Virus record (IMG/VR): IMGVR_UViG_3300015198_000093
Location: 1-20,164 of that record
Length of the DNA stretch: 20,164 nt
Direction: 5' to 3' (one strand)
DNA from: a virus
The notes under the pieces are model-generated. The model had not been told where the DNA came from, ran no database searches, and was given only the letters and a program-made list of their open reading frames with translations. A program made the position numbers and the translations under genes. Shown here in pieces: positions 832 through 17,037 of the stretch (the stretch's first letter is position 1; each line of letters begins with the position of its first letter).

Positions 832-2244
832 TTAAACAGTGGCACGATCTTGACGTATCATTGCGTCAATTTTTGTTTCTAAACCGTTAAACACATCATG
901 CTCGTACAGGTAAAGAATGTCGTTTACTTTCCACATAGTTCGGTTAGCGTCTTCTACAGAGAAAACTGTTAGACTAAAGTCACTTCTTTGCAGTCTTCGA
1001 TTAAACGTGTTAGTTGCTATCCCGAAATACACGGAAATCTCTGCTTGTGGAATACGAGTATTTAATGTTAAACCTTCTGGTAAAACATACAAGTTTCCAA
1101 GTGGACGATCATCTGGATTTTGATCGCTATTTACTCTCAATAAACGAATTTTATTTTCACCGCTTTCAGATTCACTTTCCATTCCAGTTGTATCTGCGGA
1201 AACATCACCCTCTTGTGAGTCCGATACATAGATAGTGGTATATTGCGGATTATTGTTACTTTCCATAGGAGTAGTACCAGTGGAAACTTCGACTGTTTCT
1301 GCATGGAAAGTTGATCCAATTTCGGGCGTAACTGGTACTAACTTTCCATTTTCAGAATCGCGTGGAAAGCTGGCTACATCTGACTTTCCATCAAGCGTAG
1401 CAGTATTATGGAAAGTTGCGTTTTCTTGTTGGGAACTAGATCGAATGACACCTTCGATATTTCCTTGACTTACTACATCGTCTAAAGTTACTTTTCCACC
1501 TAAAACATTAGCGAAATTAGCGAAAAATTTCTTTGCCTTAGGCGTTCCTAAAACCATCATAGCAATAATGGCTCGATTTGTACCTACTTTGCCGTCAATT
1601 AGTGCATCTGCCTCATCAGAGGCATTTCTTAATAACCGCCCTTGAATTTCTTGCTCAACATGGGCGACTTCTTCTTCTGCTGATCGTTTACGTTCGCCAA
1701 CAACGCCAGCGAGAAACAAAATTGCAGAGTACATCACTGCATGGAATACATACTTCCAGGGCTTCGGTAACTCTGGCACATTTGTTATATGTAGGTCAGG
1801 CCATATAGCAGCGTTTAGTAAAGTCAAAGCATACATGTTATAGAGTGTGATGAATAAGAGTGTACCAATAGTCTTGACCCATTCCCACGGGCTATATTTC
1901 GCTCCCGAGGATAACATGTCATTGACTGCTTTAACTTGTCGTATCTCAAACAGAGAGAAGGCGACCGTACTGAAGATTGCTGATATACCAAGATAGTAAA
2001 TAGTGAACTTCTTATCTGGCAACAATAAGCCAGCACTATTGTAAAATAATTGAGCCAACATCGTATTAGCGACTAATGCTAGAACAATGTGAGTGATTGC
2101 GGTATCACGGAGATACCGTTGGAACTTCACACTGAAAGACATTTTTGTTTTTTTAGAATTTTTAGACGCTTCTATTTCGTCTTTTTCTGACAGAGCTTTC
2201 TTTGTTTTACGGGCAATTGGTTTAACTGGTGTGTCGATAGCCAT
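832..2244 (-). CDS. Membrane protein with four predicted transmembrane helices and a putative C-terminal helix-turn-helix (470 aa)
   Basis: The start at 2244 has a near-perfect AAAGGAGG site a few bases upstream. Residues 1-45 are charged and Lys-rich. Hydrophobic segments follow at about 50-74, 81-100, 123-149 and 165-183. Residues 185-260 are helical and charged. Residues 265-365 form a Ser/Thr/Glu/Asn-rich, probably disordered linker. The last 80 residues are folded-looking: IPQAEISVYFGIATNTFNRR (399-418) resembles a helix-turn-helix, and MWKVNDILYLYEHDV (437-451) resembles the end of an excisionase or MerR-like domain. The layout recalls actinobacterial plasmid-transfer proteins that pair membrane segments with a C-terminal helix-turn-helix. 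That is an analogy, not shown homology. The linker-coding DNA carries an unusual 9-bp repeat array. Function is unknown: a membrane-tethered regulator, a replication or segregation anchor, or a host-interaction protein are all possible. Confidence 0.75.
   Translation of the reverse strand: MAIDTPVKPIARKTKKALSEKDEIEASKNSKKTKMSFSVKFQRYLRDTAITHIVLALVANTMLAQLFYNSAGLLLPDKKFTIYYLGISAIFSTVAFSLFEIRQVKAVNDMLSSGAKYSPWEWVKTIGTLLFITLYNMYALTLLNAAIWPDLHITNVPELPKPWKYVFHAVMYSAILFLAGVVGERKRSAEEEVAHVEQEIQGRLLRNASDEADALIDGKVGTNRAIIAMMVLGTPKAKKFFANFANVLGGKVTLDDVVSQGNIEGVIRSSSQQENATFHNTATLDGKSDVASFPRDSENGKLVPVTPEIGSTFHAETVEVSTGTTPMESNNNPQYTTIYVSDSQEGDVSADTTGMESESESGENKIRLLRVNSDQNPDDRPLGNLYVLPEGLTLNTRIPQAEISVYFGIATNTFNRRLQRSDFSLTVFSVEDANRTMWKVNDILYLYEHDVFNGLETKIDAMIRQDRATV
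1174..1416. repeat. Array of six exact 9-bp ACTTTCCAT / ATGGAAAGT motifs
   Basis: ACTTTCCAT occurs on the plus strand at 1174, 1258, 1341 and 1383, and its reverse complement ATGGAAAGT at 1303 and 1408. A diverged copy, GTGGAAAGC, is at 1362, and an 8/9 match, ACTTTCCAC, is at 926. All lie inside the 470-aa gene. Relative to that gene the motif is read as Met-Glu-Ser (two copies), as Gly-Lys in a shifted register (two copies), and in reverse as Thr-Phe-His (two copies). A repeated peptide therefore cannot explain it. Spacing is irregular (25-84 bp). I found no other exact copy by eye in the window. Confidence 0.6.
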
Positions 2245-2267: not shown

Positions 2268-2302
2268 ATATGCGTTGTCATATGGGAATCGACAACGCAT
2301 AT
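2268..2302 (-). terminator. Intercistronic hairpin, likely factor-independent terminator or attenuator
   Basis: Perfect 12-bp arms ATATGCGTTGTC (2268-2279) and GACAACGCATAT (2291-2302) enclose an 11-nt loop. On the minus strand the stem starts just after the 178-aa gene and is followed by ATTTTA. The downstream 470-aa gene starts only 23 bases beyond the stem, which leaves no room for a separate promoter between them. The hairpin probably ends most transcripts of the 178-aa gene and lets a fraction read through. Confidence 0.65.
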
Positions 2303-2310
2303 TTAATAAA

Positions 2311-2847
2311 CTATTCCTGTGTTGGCTTACTAGCTGCCTGAACTTCCGCCTTTACATCGTTTACATTACCTTGCAATGCAATAGCAGCAGTCGTAAGTTG
2401 ACGATTAACGGCTAAGGTAAGTGTACGGACATTATCAAACTGCTTGATGATATTCTGGCAATCCAGAATGAGCTTATCTGTTGCCTTCTCTAATTTTGTA
2501 ATTTGCTCAGAACTACCACCTTTTACACTGAATGCTTGTGAACGTGTCCACATAGCAAACCATGTAAATCGGCCTTTTGTACCAGTCTCACTTTTTAGTG
2601 TTTGAACCGCTTGTGCTGCTACGGTCATTGCTTCTTTAGCTTTAACAATGGCTTCTAATGTAGAAGCACTTCGATCAACCACTAAACCAGTTTTACGATC
2701 ATCGCTGATAAACGTATTAGCTTTTAGGGCAGTCTCTAGATTTCCAATTTCAACTTTCAATGCTTTGCGAGATGCTTCCGCCGCCGCTAGCATTTTATTG
2801 GTATTAGCCTCTTGTTCTGGTGTCTGTGCTTTTTTAGTATTCGCCAT
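2311..2847 (-). CDS. Helical soluble protein of unknown function (178 aa)
   Basis: The start at 2847 is preceded by AGAGGAAAAAACTC, a good ribosome-binding site. The protein is rich in Ala, Lys, Thr and Gln and is predicted almost entirely alpha-helical. Helices fall at about residues 8-45, 60-90 and 110-175, with a short aromatic stretch FTWFAMWTRSQAF near residues 94-106 that could be a membrane-surface or packing segment. There is no signal peptide and no clear catalytic motif. It is the first gene of the leftward block, so it is expected to be the most strongly expressed, and a terminator-like hairpin follows it directly. I do not recognise the family. It could be an early structural or DNA-associated protein, but nothing in the sequence settles that. 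Confidence 0.65.
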   Translation of the reverse strand: MANTKKAQTPEQEANTNKMLAAAEASRKALKVEIGNLETALKANTFISDDRKTGLVVDRSASTLEAIVKAKEAMTVAAQAVQTLKSETGTKGRFTWFAMWTRSQAFSVKGGSSEQITKLEKATDKLILDCQNIIKQFDNVRTLTLAVNRQLTTAAIALQGNVNDVKAEVQAASKPTQE

Positions 2848-2885
2848 GAGTTTTTTCCTCTTTCTTTGGTATGCAATTTCTAAAC

Positions 2886-2949
2886 AGTGTGAATATAATT
2901 GTTGGACACACTAGATACTACTGTTTATTTGCATCCGTACAAATAGTAT
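2886..2949. promoter_or_regulatory. Palindrome-rich divergent regulatory region (candidate operators)
   Basis: AGTGTG (2886-2891) pairs with CACACT (2907-2912). ATACTA (2915-2920) pairs with TAGTAT (2944-2949), and inside that TATTTG (2926-2931) pairs with CAAATA (2940-2945). These dyads sit between the divergent 178-aa and helix-turn-helix genes. The inner one overlaps the -35 element of the rightward promoter. They are candidate operators for the adjacent DNA-binding protein. Binding itself is inference. Confidence 0.45.
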
Positions 2950-2957
2950 GGCATAAT
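2929..2957 (+). promoter_or_regulatory. Candidate promoter for the helix-turn-helix gene
   Basis: TTGCAT at 2929-2934 and CATAAT at 2952-2957 are separated by the optimal 17 bp and resemble the sigma-70/sigma-A consensus. Transcription would start near 2964, giving a leader of about 75 bases before the chosen ATG at 3039. Confidence 0.55.
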
Positions 2958-3038
2958 ACAGGTATAAGTGTCAAGGTGGTACTATTGGATAGAAAAACTG
3001 TTTTGGCATTTAACAAAAGAGGAAAGAAGAAAATACAG

Positions 3039-3332
3039 ATGACATTAGAAGATACGCAAGAAATGACGCAAGATGAATTAAGACAGGCGTTCTTGCCATT
3101 GTCCAAAGATGGTAAAGATAAAATCAAAGCAGATATACGGAGCTTGGATTTTATTACGATAAAACAAGTTATGCTCTTGCTCGATTTTCAATATAGTTTT
3201 GAGACTATTAGAACTTGGGTAAATAATGAATCATTACCTCGCACAAGATTAGGTGGAGATAAAGGGGCAATTCTGATTAAAATAACTGATTTTGATGAAT
3301 TTTTAAAGAATGGGTATAAAAGAGCCAATTAG
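3039..3332 (+). CDS. Small helix-turn-helix DNA-binding protein, excisionase/MerR-like (97 aa)
   Basis: I choose the ATG at 3039 (protein begins MTLEDTQEMTQDEL), because AGAGGAAAGA lies about ten bases upstream and the open frame above it runs through the promoter. Residues 1-35 are acidic and helical. Residues 38-62 (FITIKQVMLLLDFQYSFETI and on to RTWV) fit a helix-turn-helix of the excisionase/MerR type. They are followed by a basic turn, LPRTRLGG, and a wing-like strand, AILIKITDFDEFLKNG. Proteins like this act as excisionases, transcription regulators or recombination directionality factors. The gene is divergent from the leftward block and next to several palindromes, so a local regulator is the most likely role. 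No integrase is visible to support an excisionase role. Confidence 0.6.
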   Translation: MTLEDTQEMTQDELRQAFLPLSKDGKDKIKADIRSLDFITIKQVMLLLDFQYSFETIRTWVNNESLPRTRLGGDKGAILIKITDFDEFLKNGYKRAN

Positions 3333-3492: not shown

Positions 3493-3560
3493 CAACAAAA
3501 AGATACTCACTGGATTTTTTACTCTTCTCTTTGTTTTAATCCAGTGAGTATCTTTTGTTG
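3493..3560. terminator. Long bidirectional hairpin terminator between convergent genes
   Basis: The left arm at 3493-3516 (CAACAAAAAGATACTCACTG then GATT) is complementary to the right arm at 3538-3560 with a single bulged A. The loop is 21 nt and pyrimidine-rich. The inner 15-bp stem is preceded by an A-tract and followed by TTTTGTTG, so it has terminator form in both directions. It lies between the rightward helix-turn-helix gene and the leftward lysin gene. The 160 bases before it (3333-3492) hold only short dyads, such as CGTCA-TGACG near 3343-3357, and no gene that I can support. Confidence 0.75.
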
Positions 3561-4272: not shown

Positions 4273-4848
4273 ATGGATCGTTTTCAGTTATTGGAACTAG
4301 CAGATCGGGTCGAAGATGCAATGCTTCAAGGCTACATAACACCCCATGAAATAGCGAAATTTGCTCAATGTTCCAATCCACAAGCACGCAGTTGTATGGA
4401 ACATATACATAAACGCTGGCACCGTAACCAGTCACACCAATCAAGAGAAGATAAACGCGAGCAAGCCATATTTATGTCGATGAATGCTCTACGAAAAACA
4501 TACGTACTCTATGAGTCAGCCAAAGATCAGGACGCTCTAGGAGAGGCAAACAGGGCTATGGGGAACATCATACGCATATTGAGCCAAGTAGCCAACCTAG
4601 AAGGTCTAAATGAGCGTACAGTTCGTATAGGGGGCGATAAAGATGGTATACCTATCGTTACTGAAGCACAATCGCAAGTATTGATATTAGAGGGATTGGT
4701 AAATAATGGATATATTGACACAACAATACTTAAACAAATCGAATCCACAATCCTTAATCGATCTGATAGTAGCACGGAAGTCATTGGCAGTATACGGGAA
4801 GCTGACACGCAATTTGACACCACAACCACATCACAATGGGGTCATTAA
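4273..4848 (+). CDS. Terminase small subunit-like protein (191 aa)
   Basis: It lies directly upstream of and overlaps the large terminase gene, the usual place of the DNA-recognition small subunit. The N-terminal part is helical, with a possible helix-turn-helix near ITPHEIAKFAQCSNPQARSC. A long charged helical middle (REDKREQAIFMSMNALRKTY and on) could oligomerise, as small terminases form rings. The acidic Ser/Thr-rich tail may contact the large subunit. The start is uncertain: ATG 4273 has AAAAGGA 11 bases upstream, TTG 4267 has the same site 5 bases upstream, and a GTG at 4249 gives 199 aa without a clear site. Assignment rests on position and general architecture, not on a recognised family signature. 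Confidence 0.6.
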   Translation: MDRFQLLELADRVEDAMLQGYITPHEIAKFAQCSNPQARSCMEHIHKRWHRNQSHQSREDKREQAIFMSMNALRKTYVLYESAKDQDALGEANRAMGNIIRILSQVANLEGLNERTVRIGGDKDGIPIVTEAQSQVLILEGLVNNGYIDTTILKQIESTILNRSDSSTEVIGSIREADTQFDTTTTSQWGH

Positions 4849-16281: not shown

Positions 16282-16694
16282 AAGATACCGACGCACATGA
16301 TTTTCTAGCGCAATTAGTACGACACATTACTGATCTGATGCGCTATGGATATAGAGAACGGGACATTCTGGATCATACTTGTGAATGGCTGAATTATACC
16401 TATCTTTTTGAGCGGGACAGAGAAGTTCAGCAAATCAGAATGAAAGAGGGCATGCGGTTACAAGCCGCCCGACTCACAGGCATTATGTTTCATGACCCTG
16501 AAAAGGGAACGGAATTTTACGAATCCCTTGTAGCTACCCTCAATGGCGAGGATAACAGCGATGATGATTGGCTAAGTAACCCGAATGCGTCAACAGATTT
16601 AGCAGCCCTAGAAGGAACTATACAAAGGAGAATCGATGAGCGAACCAACACCAGTAGTAGCGACGGACCCAACACAGACACCAGTAGTAGTTGA
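16233..16694 (+). CDS. Tail assembly chaperone frameshift extension (gpT-like part of the gpGT fusion)
   Basis: The -1 frame is open from the slippery site to the TGA at 16694. After codon 179 of the upstream frame it continues LAEVGDGSLYANAPSLED and then DLMRYGYRERDILDHTCEW, a helical charged region typical of the T-part of tail chaperone fusions. The fusion would be about 332 aa (179 plus 153). The first ATG in this frame, at 16338, has no ribosome-binding site, so separate translation is unlikely. In lambda, gpG and gpGT are made in a fixed ratio and the T-part recruits tail-tube protein, and the same role is expected here. The last 25 residues are Thr/Ser/Asp-rich and overlap the start of the next gene by 59 bases in another frame. 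Confidence 0.85.
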   Translation, partial: LAEVGDGSLYANAPSLEDTDAHDFLAQLVRHITDLMRYGYRERDILDHTCEWLNYTYLFERDREVQQIRMKEGMRLQAARLTGIMFHDPEKGTEFYESLVATLNGEDNSDDDWLSNPNASTDLAALEGTIQRRIDERTNTSSSDGPNTDTSSS

Positions 16695-17037
16695 ACCAAC
16701 ACCTGTCGCAGTAGTTCCCAATCCAACACCTGTCGCAGTAGTTCCCAATCCAACACCTGTAGTTGAACCAACACAAGACATTGAATTAACTGAGGGCGAA
16801 ACGTTGCATATCAATGTACATGCTGCACCATCAGTAGTTCCTGTACCAACCGTAGACCTCACACAACCATCTGAGTTAGTGTATGACGGTCCTAGTGACT
16901 TTTTGACCATTCCTATGACCATCGCTAAAGGTGCGTCATTTGCCTATACACCAGTGTTTGCTGAGTGGGTCAAACAGTTGCAAGATGCAAACCATTCATT
17001 CCATGTTGCTACCATCGCACAGACATCTAAGGCATAG
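16636..17037 (+). CDS. Pro/Val/Thr-rich repeat protein between chaperone and tape measure (133 aa)
   Basis: AAAGGAG lies six bases before the ATG, so this start inside the end of the chaperone extension is well supported. Residues 1-48 are a low-complexity Pro/Val/Thr/Asn tract with the repeating unit PTPVAVVPN encoded by 27-bp direct repeats. Residues 50-133 look folded and include VDLTQPSELVYDGPSDFLTI and FAYTPVFAEWVKQLQDANHS. The proline tract is probably an extended linker or spike. Few tailed phages I can recall have a gene of this type here, so the role is unknown. A small tail-tip or tail-chaperone accessory protein is one guess. Confidence 0.65.
   Translation: MSEPTPVVATDPTQTPVVVEPTPVAVVPNPTPVAVVPNPTPVVEPTQDIELTEGETLHINVHAAPSVVPVPTVDLTQPSELVYDGPSDFLTIPMTIAKGASFAYTPVFAEWVKQLQDANHSFHVATIAQTSKA
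16696..16760 (+). repeat. Direct 27-bp repeats, two complete copies plus a partial third
   Basis: A 27-bp unit starting CCAACACCTGTCGCAGTAGT occurs at 16696-16722 and again at 16723-16749 without a mismatch. The first 11 bases recur at 16750-16760. The unit length is a multiple of three, so it adds nine-residue PTPVAVVPN blocks to the encoded protein. Flanking GTAGTTGAACCAACAC copies extend the redundancy. Perfect identity suggests recent slippage or unequal crossover. Confidence 0.9.

Follow-up and report, generated by a model that had tools for sequence, protein, structure and literature searches.

A putative membrane-anchored DNA-binding protein of an uncultured phage, with a phased 9-bp array inside its own gene

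The holding of phage or plasmid DNA at the membrane is known from few systems: p16.7 and p1 of phage phi29, the Spd and TraB proteins, and AlpAC. FtsK, in its recognition of KOPS, is membrane-associated and reads short (8-bp) repeats by means of a C-terminal winged helix. In phi29 the membrane proteins p16.7 and p1 organise phage DNA replication, p16.7 binding both single-stranded DNA and the terminal protein (PMC4974454). Among plasmid proteins, TraB recognises clt repeats, and SpdA2 of pIJ101 is a stability protein that has its recognition site, sps, inside the sequence encoding it (PMC4170104). AlpA of prophage CGP3 is a DNA-binding adaptor, which recognises the alpS repeats close to its gene, in a system that moves phage DNA towards the membrane (PMC4446434). 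In phage lambda the iterons of ori-lambda are located inside the O gene (PMC5043065).

The stretch analysed here, hereafter the window, is the 20,164-bp IMG/VR virus record IMGVR_UViG_3300015198_000093 from an uncultured phage (GC content 43%). It encodes a 470-aa protein with predicted membrane helices, a putative DNA-binding C-terminus and an array of 9-bp repeats within the gene itself. Each known system compared shares one or two features with this protein; in the open-licence literature we found no system that joins a membrane anchor, a reader and an in-gene array.

A sequence-only reading of this DNA had held that no phage system was described with such a protein. For the idea itself this is too strong: in phi29, replication of the phage DNA is brought to the membrane by two membrane proteins of the phage itself, p16.7 and p1. 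However, no sequence similarity to the window protein was found in phage records, and phi29 replication is protein-primed. Nor do we know of an iteron array within the p16.7 gene. Spd proteins of the DUF2637 type are integral membrane proteins that bind double-stranded DNA, and the window protein has, from sequence only, predicted helices and a helix-turn-helix (HTH)-like segment; but binding by SpdB2 of the Streptomyces plasmid pSVH1 is non-specific, and neither a search of the window's record with the DUF2637 model (Pfam PF10935, E<=10) nor the Pfam scan gave a match to this family. With TraB/clt the likeness lies in attachment to the membrane and in a winged helix at the C-terminus for short repeats, to which a putative winged HTH (wHTH) and the 9-bp array in the gene would correspond here. 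Unlike TraB and FtsK, the window protein is of 470 aa, is without a Pfam match and lacks the FtsK/SpoIIIE motor ATPase domain (Pfam, NCBIfam and PHROG).

Lambda O offers a parallel for the array: its iterons lie inside its own gene, and the six phased 9-bp copies described below lie in a gene whose product may bind them. O is soluble, however, with an N-terminal DNA-binding domain and 19-bp inverted-repeat iterons, whereas the window protein has its HTH-like part at the C-terminus, four membrane helices before it and a 9-bp word; Pfam detects no RepO/HTH_36-type DNA-binding domain in it. SpdA2 also has its site inside its own coding region, but it is a small DNA-binding protein, sps consists of one palindrome and not of dispersed copies, and no membrane anchor is described for it in PMC4170104. 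AlpA works through an actin-like filament, whereas in the window protein the anchor would be part of the same polypeptide. By the tests run, the 470-aa protein is not a member of the DUF2637/SpdB, FtsK/TraB or RepO groups.

The window contains a tailed-phage late block that runs rightward from ~4.2 kb and comprises a small-terminase-like ORF, TerL (phrog_38, 2.9e-79 in the PHROG search), the portal (phrog_113, 2.8e-64), other structural genes and a tape-measure-like ORF cut at the end. Left of it lie leftward genes of 178, 470, 139 and 81 aa, which diverge from a small HTH_17-like gene. These presumably form an early block, a label taken from the divergence of the leftward operon from the late genes. 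The 470-aa gene (Table 1) has its ATG behind a strong Shine-Dalgarno sequence, GAAAGGAGGAAAAC-ATG, and the inverted repeat upstream of it is a candidate operator or hairpin. Within the 20-kb fragment neither a ParA nor a replication partner can be seen. Two further repeats were noted elsewhere in the window: a perfect 19-bp inverted repeat with a 21-nt spacer (3498-3556), between the convergent HTH gene and a CHAP/LysM endolysin gene, which is likely a bidirectional terminator; and a 27-bp tandem repeat of 2.5 copies (16694-16760) in a Pro/Thr/Val-rich ORF adjoining the tape measure gene.

Table 1. Features of the 470-aa gene and its neighbourhood, in window coordinates.
Feature	Position	Strand	Basis
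470-aa orphan membrane protein CDS with HTH-like C-terminus, ATG start	832..2244	-	ORF list
Four predicted transmembrane helices, residues 49-183, N-in/C-in	1696..2100	-	hydropathy; loop charges
Helical cytoplasmic region, residues 184-262	1459..1695	-	helices in low-confidence model; composition
Acidic linker, residues 263-363; its DNA holds the whole array	1156..1458	-	composition
C-terminal domain, residues 364-470, putative wHTH	835..1155	-	sub-threshold Pfam matches; HTH profile
HTH-like 20-mer, residues 400-419	988..1047	-	HTH profile
ATGGAAAGT copy 1, encodes MES	1174..1182	-	exact
ATGGAAAGT copy 2, encodes MES	1258..1266	-	exact
ATGGAAAGT copy 3, opposite orientation, encodes TFH	1303..1311	+	exact
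ATGGAAAGT copy 4, encodes NGKL	1341..1349	-	exact
ATGGAAAGT copy 5, encodes DGKS	1383..1391	-	exact
ATGGAAAGT copy 6, opposite orientation, encodes TFH	1408..1416	+	exact
Degenerate copy GTGGAAACT, imperfect dyad with copy 2	1280..1288	+	
Degenerate copy GTGGAAAGC, imperfect dyad with copy 4	1362..1370	+	
One-mismatch copy GTGGAAAGT, outside main array	926..934	-	
Perfect 12-bp inverted repeat, 11-nt spacer, between 178-aa gene and Shine-Dalgarno of 470-aa gene	2268..2302	.	
178-aa gene upstream of 470-aa gene, leftward operon member	2311..2847	-	ORF list; Pfam and PHROG searches
Small HTH_17/excisionase-like regulator, divergent; rival candidate array binder	2871..3332	+	Pfam HTH_17 3.9e-4, under gathering score

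Hydropathy places four hydrophobic helices at residues 49-67, 80-98, 129-147 and 165-183, joined on the outside by short loops of 12 and 17 aa. The N-terminus is basic (13 K/R against 6 D/E) and ERKR follows the fourth helix; by the positive-inside rule both fit an N-in/C-in topology, which would put the C-terminus in the cytoplasm. The 101-residue linker is rich in S, T, E and G and carries 18 acidic residues against four basic. The sequence-only reading had proposed four membrane helices (50-183) and a disordered linker of about 100 residues, and had suggested topology prediction as a check; helices and linker are borne out by hydropathy and composition, and the loop charges agree.

The protein has no significant match in Pfam, PHROG, NCBIfam, PADLOC or among PDB sequences. 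The sequence-only reading had singled out an unrelated transporter or signalling family as the resemblance that would speak against it: no confident match of this kind, nor any to holin or defence families, was found in the libraries searched (Pfam, PHROG, NCBIfam and PADLOC). Likewise, tblastn gave no significant match in 50,697 phage records and no relative among plasmids, and peptide-pattern scans of IMG/VR and GTDB genomes, by which only close relatives are detectable, returned none.

Of particular interest is the DNA that encodes the linker. The 9-bp word ATGGAAAGT occurs in six exact copies in the 20-kb window, all of them at 1174-1416 (243 bp) and in both orientations. The best 9-mer cluster in order-3 Markov simulations (n=300) reached four copies, and synonymous-codon shuffles (n=2000) gave at most four copies of the word, with a mean of 0.98; together these rule out chance as the origin of the array. 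A protein-level repeat is ruled out as well: the word is found in both orientations and in several frames (MES, TFH, NGK/DGK), which means that the DNA word is constrained and not the peptide. The 33-bp surroundings of copies 1 and 2 are 76% identical, forming a direct repeat, and this pair may stem from a local duplication.

Copies in the same orientation are spaced by 84, 83, 42 and 105 bp, that is, by 8, 7.9, 4 and 10 helical turns. Phasing to 10.5 bp gives R=0.97 with P about 0.003-0.004 under position and frame-preserving nulls, for six sites only and with the offset between the two orientations fitted. Degenerate GGAAA partners follow sites by 12-16 bp, so the array can also be taken for a set of imperfect dyads. 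The six intergenic stretches scanned, the divergent promoter region included, hold no copy even when two mismatches are allowed, which argues for one assembly site and against scattered operators. The array is iteron- or centromere-like, and the 9-bp array that the sequence-only reading had seen in the gene thus proves to be six exact, phased and non-random copies. It is not built of canonical DnaA boxes, ATGGAAAGT sharing little beyond TCCA with TTATCCACA, and Rfam gave no match. An IMG/VR scan for paired ATGGAAAGT returned, among the three-copy matches listed, protein repeats, tandem repeats or coding genes without sign of kinship.

Computation establishes the reading frame, its hydrophobic helices, the make-up of the linker and the array with its phasing. 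On this foundation we put forward, as a serious but still tentative possibility, that the 470-aa protein is anchored in the membrane and binds DNA sequence-specifically, with its cognate array in its own gene, serving partition or membrane-localised replication. The four N-terminal helices would anchor it in the cytoplasmic membrane, while the long, acidic and flexible linker would give the winged-HTH-like C-terminal domain reach into the cytoplasm, and this domain would read ATGGAAAGT. The six phased copies, together with the degenerate ones, would form one cis site, a centromere or an origin, and several protein copies would assemble on a single face of the array DNA. This would tie the DNA of the phage (or plasmid-prophage) to the membrane and serve either its partition or its replication at that site.

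A syntenic sister phage, IMGVR_UViG_3300010396_000010 (72 kb), was reached via the major capsid protein; its identity to the window is 50% for that protein, 55% for TerL and 60% for the portal. No sequence homologue of the 470-aa protein is found in it. It does encode a 485-aa protein (L014:4360-5817(-)) in which four helices are predicted at the N-terminus and the C-terminal half is soluble. A 423-aa protein of IMGVR_UViG_3300030115_000006 (L021:1914-3185(+)) is related to it with 38% identity over the C-terminal domain, although only three helices of the 423-aa protein rise above the hydropathy threshold. Window protein and the two others have a common layout (N-terminal helices, a middle region and a C-terminal domain), but their sequences differ: direct homology of the window protein with the sister-phage four-helix protein was rejected for want of any signal in BLASTP or hhalign (probability 0.2%). 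Neither a classical HTH (HTH profile) nor an array inside the gene was found for the sister-phage four-helix proteins. The 485-aa and 423-aa proteins define a multi-helix phage membrane protein family in their own right, with a conserved C-terminal domain, a GQGYKFGTMYA motif and no database match.

In-gene repeats nonetheless occur in the sister phage, within a separate gene for a wHTH protein (L015:4476-5708(+); HTH_36 1.1e-6) that holds five exact copies of the 13-bp AAAGGGTGACATT, at 4838, 4880, 4903, 4934 and 4955. By analogy these are a candidate lambda-O-like internal origin. Among 60 phage sequences of at least 9 kb, the other high scorers inspected were, the sister phage excepted, tandem, AT-rich or protein repeats. 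Several other genes were noted: in the sister phage a ParB (L014:31-969(+); ParB_N 1.4e-10), an integrase-like ORF (L015:18140-19486) and a sigma-factor-like ORF (L015:8400-9290), and at L021:3283-5289(-) an ORF for a secreted protein whose glycosyl-hydrolase-like sequence and PTPVPTSTIAPTNTPP linkers recall Chloroflexota.

The sister-phage arrangement bears on the main rival explanation, that the array is an iteron origin for another initiator, encoded outside the fragment, and sits in a permissive linker segment of an unrelated membrane protein gene. Five exact iterons in a separate HTH_36 wHTH gene are what this explanation would draw on, as is the fact that no coding DNA is less constrained than that of a linker. 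In lambda, however, and seemingly in the sister phage too, the protein that binds the iterons is encoded by the gene in which they lie, and here that would be the 470-aa protein; moreover, the DNA around the array, with an AT content of 58-65%, shows no conspicuous A+T-rich unwinding element. We consider this explanation rather unlikely.

A second rival is that the C-terminus does not bind DNA at all, the protein being an ordinary phage membrane protein (an exclusion or lysis helper) and the array having an unrelated role. What matters here is the evidence for an HTH. A 20-residue-wide profile made from 23 classical HTH sequences has its best match in the protein at residues 400-419 (QAEISVYFGIATNTFNRRLQ), with 10.0 bits; known HTHs scored on the same profile by leave-one-out range from 5.7 to 31.8. 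Against shuffles this score has P=0.002 for the 107-aa C-terminus but only P=0.03 for the whole protein, a figure that favours the rival. So does the AlphaFold model of the C-terminal 107 aa from single sequence, which is strand-rich and without an HTH at low confidence (pLDDT 51); the full-length model has pLDDT 36. Structure prediction was the check that the sequence-only reading had asked for, and these single-sequence models are too poor either to confirm or to refute an HTH. On the other side, all matches of the C-terminal 107 aa searched alone against Pfam, while below threshold (PrtN 0.046, HTH_24 0.13, Sigma70_r4_2 0.13), are to HTH families, and no defence, holin or transporter model matches. 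An HTH in the C-terminus is thus likely on profile and family evidence, supported rather than proved, in line with the HTH-like segment that the sequence-only reading had placed at 399-418. An ordinary membrane protein is, in our estimate, unlikely.

Less probable again is that the array serves as a group of operators through which a phage regulator, such as the HTH_17 protein, controls the leftward operon. Such a regulator is encoded next door and cooperative repressors typically use phased dyads, but the array lies 0.8-1.1 kb inside the gene, the scanned intergenic regions hold no copy, and the perfect inverted repeat at the gene's 5′ end is the better operator candidate. Very improbable is a membrane-bound transcription regulator of CadC/ToxR-like logic, sensing the envelope and autoregulating through the array: membrane helices plus an HTH-like domain would suit it, but there are four helices with short outside loops and no sensor domain, and the sites are far from the promoter.

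Returning to a membrane-anchored DNA-binding protein with its own array, this reading is supported by six copies within 243 bp in both orientations, their phasing, the HTH-like segment and a predicted cytoplasmic C-terminus, and by the sister phage, with its four-helix protein of like layout and its in-gene iterons in a wHTH protein. It is weakened by the want of a homologue, of an HTH in the poor AlphaFold models and of a visible ParA or replication partner, by the small number of sites, by the possible 33-bp duplication, and by the sister four-helix proteins, which lack sequence similarity, a classical HTH and an in-gene array. Of the overall picture drawn from sequence alone, the helices, linker, HTH-like C-terminus and array have stood, while binding of the array by this protein and DNA tethering are inferred.

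The window protein may tether phage DNA, as its sequence suggests. A more specific proposal is correspondingly more doubtful: a one-gene DNA tether, with anchor, linker and reader in one polypeptide and the site in the linker-coding DNA, that would need neither a ParA nor a partner from the cytoskeleton to hold a plasmid-prophage or replicating phage genome at the membrane. If true, a single gene that codes for the tether and also carries the DNA site of that tether would constitute a compact, portable system.
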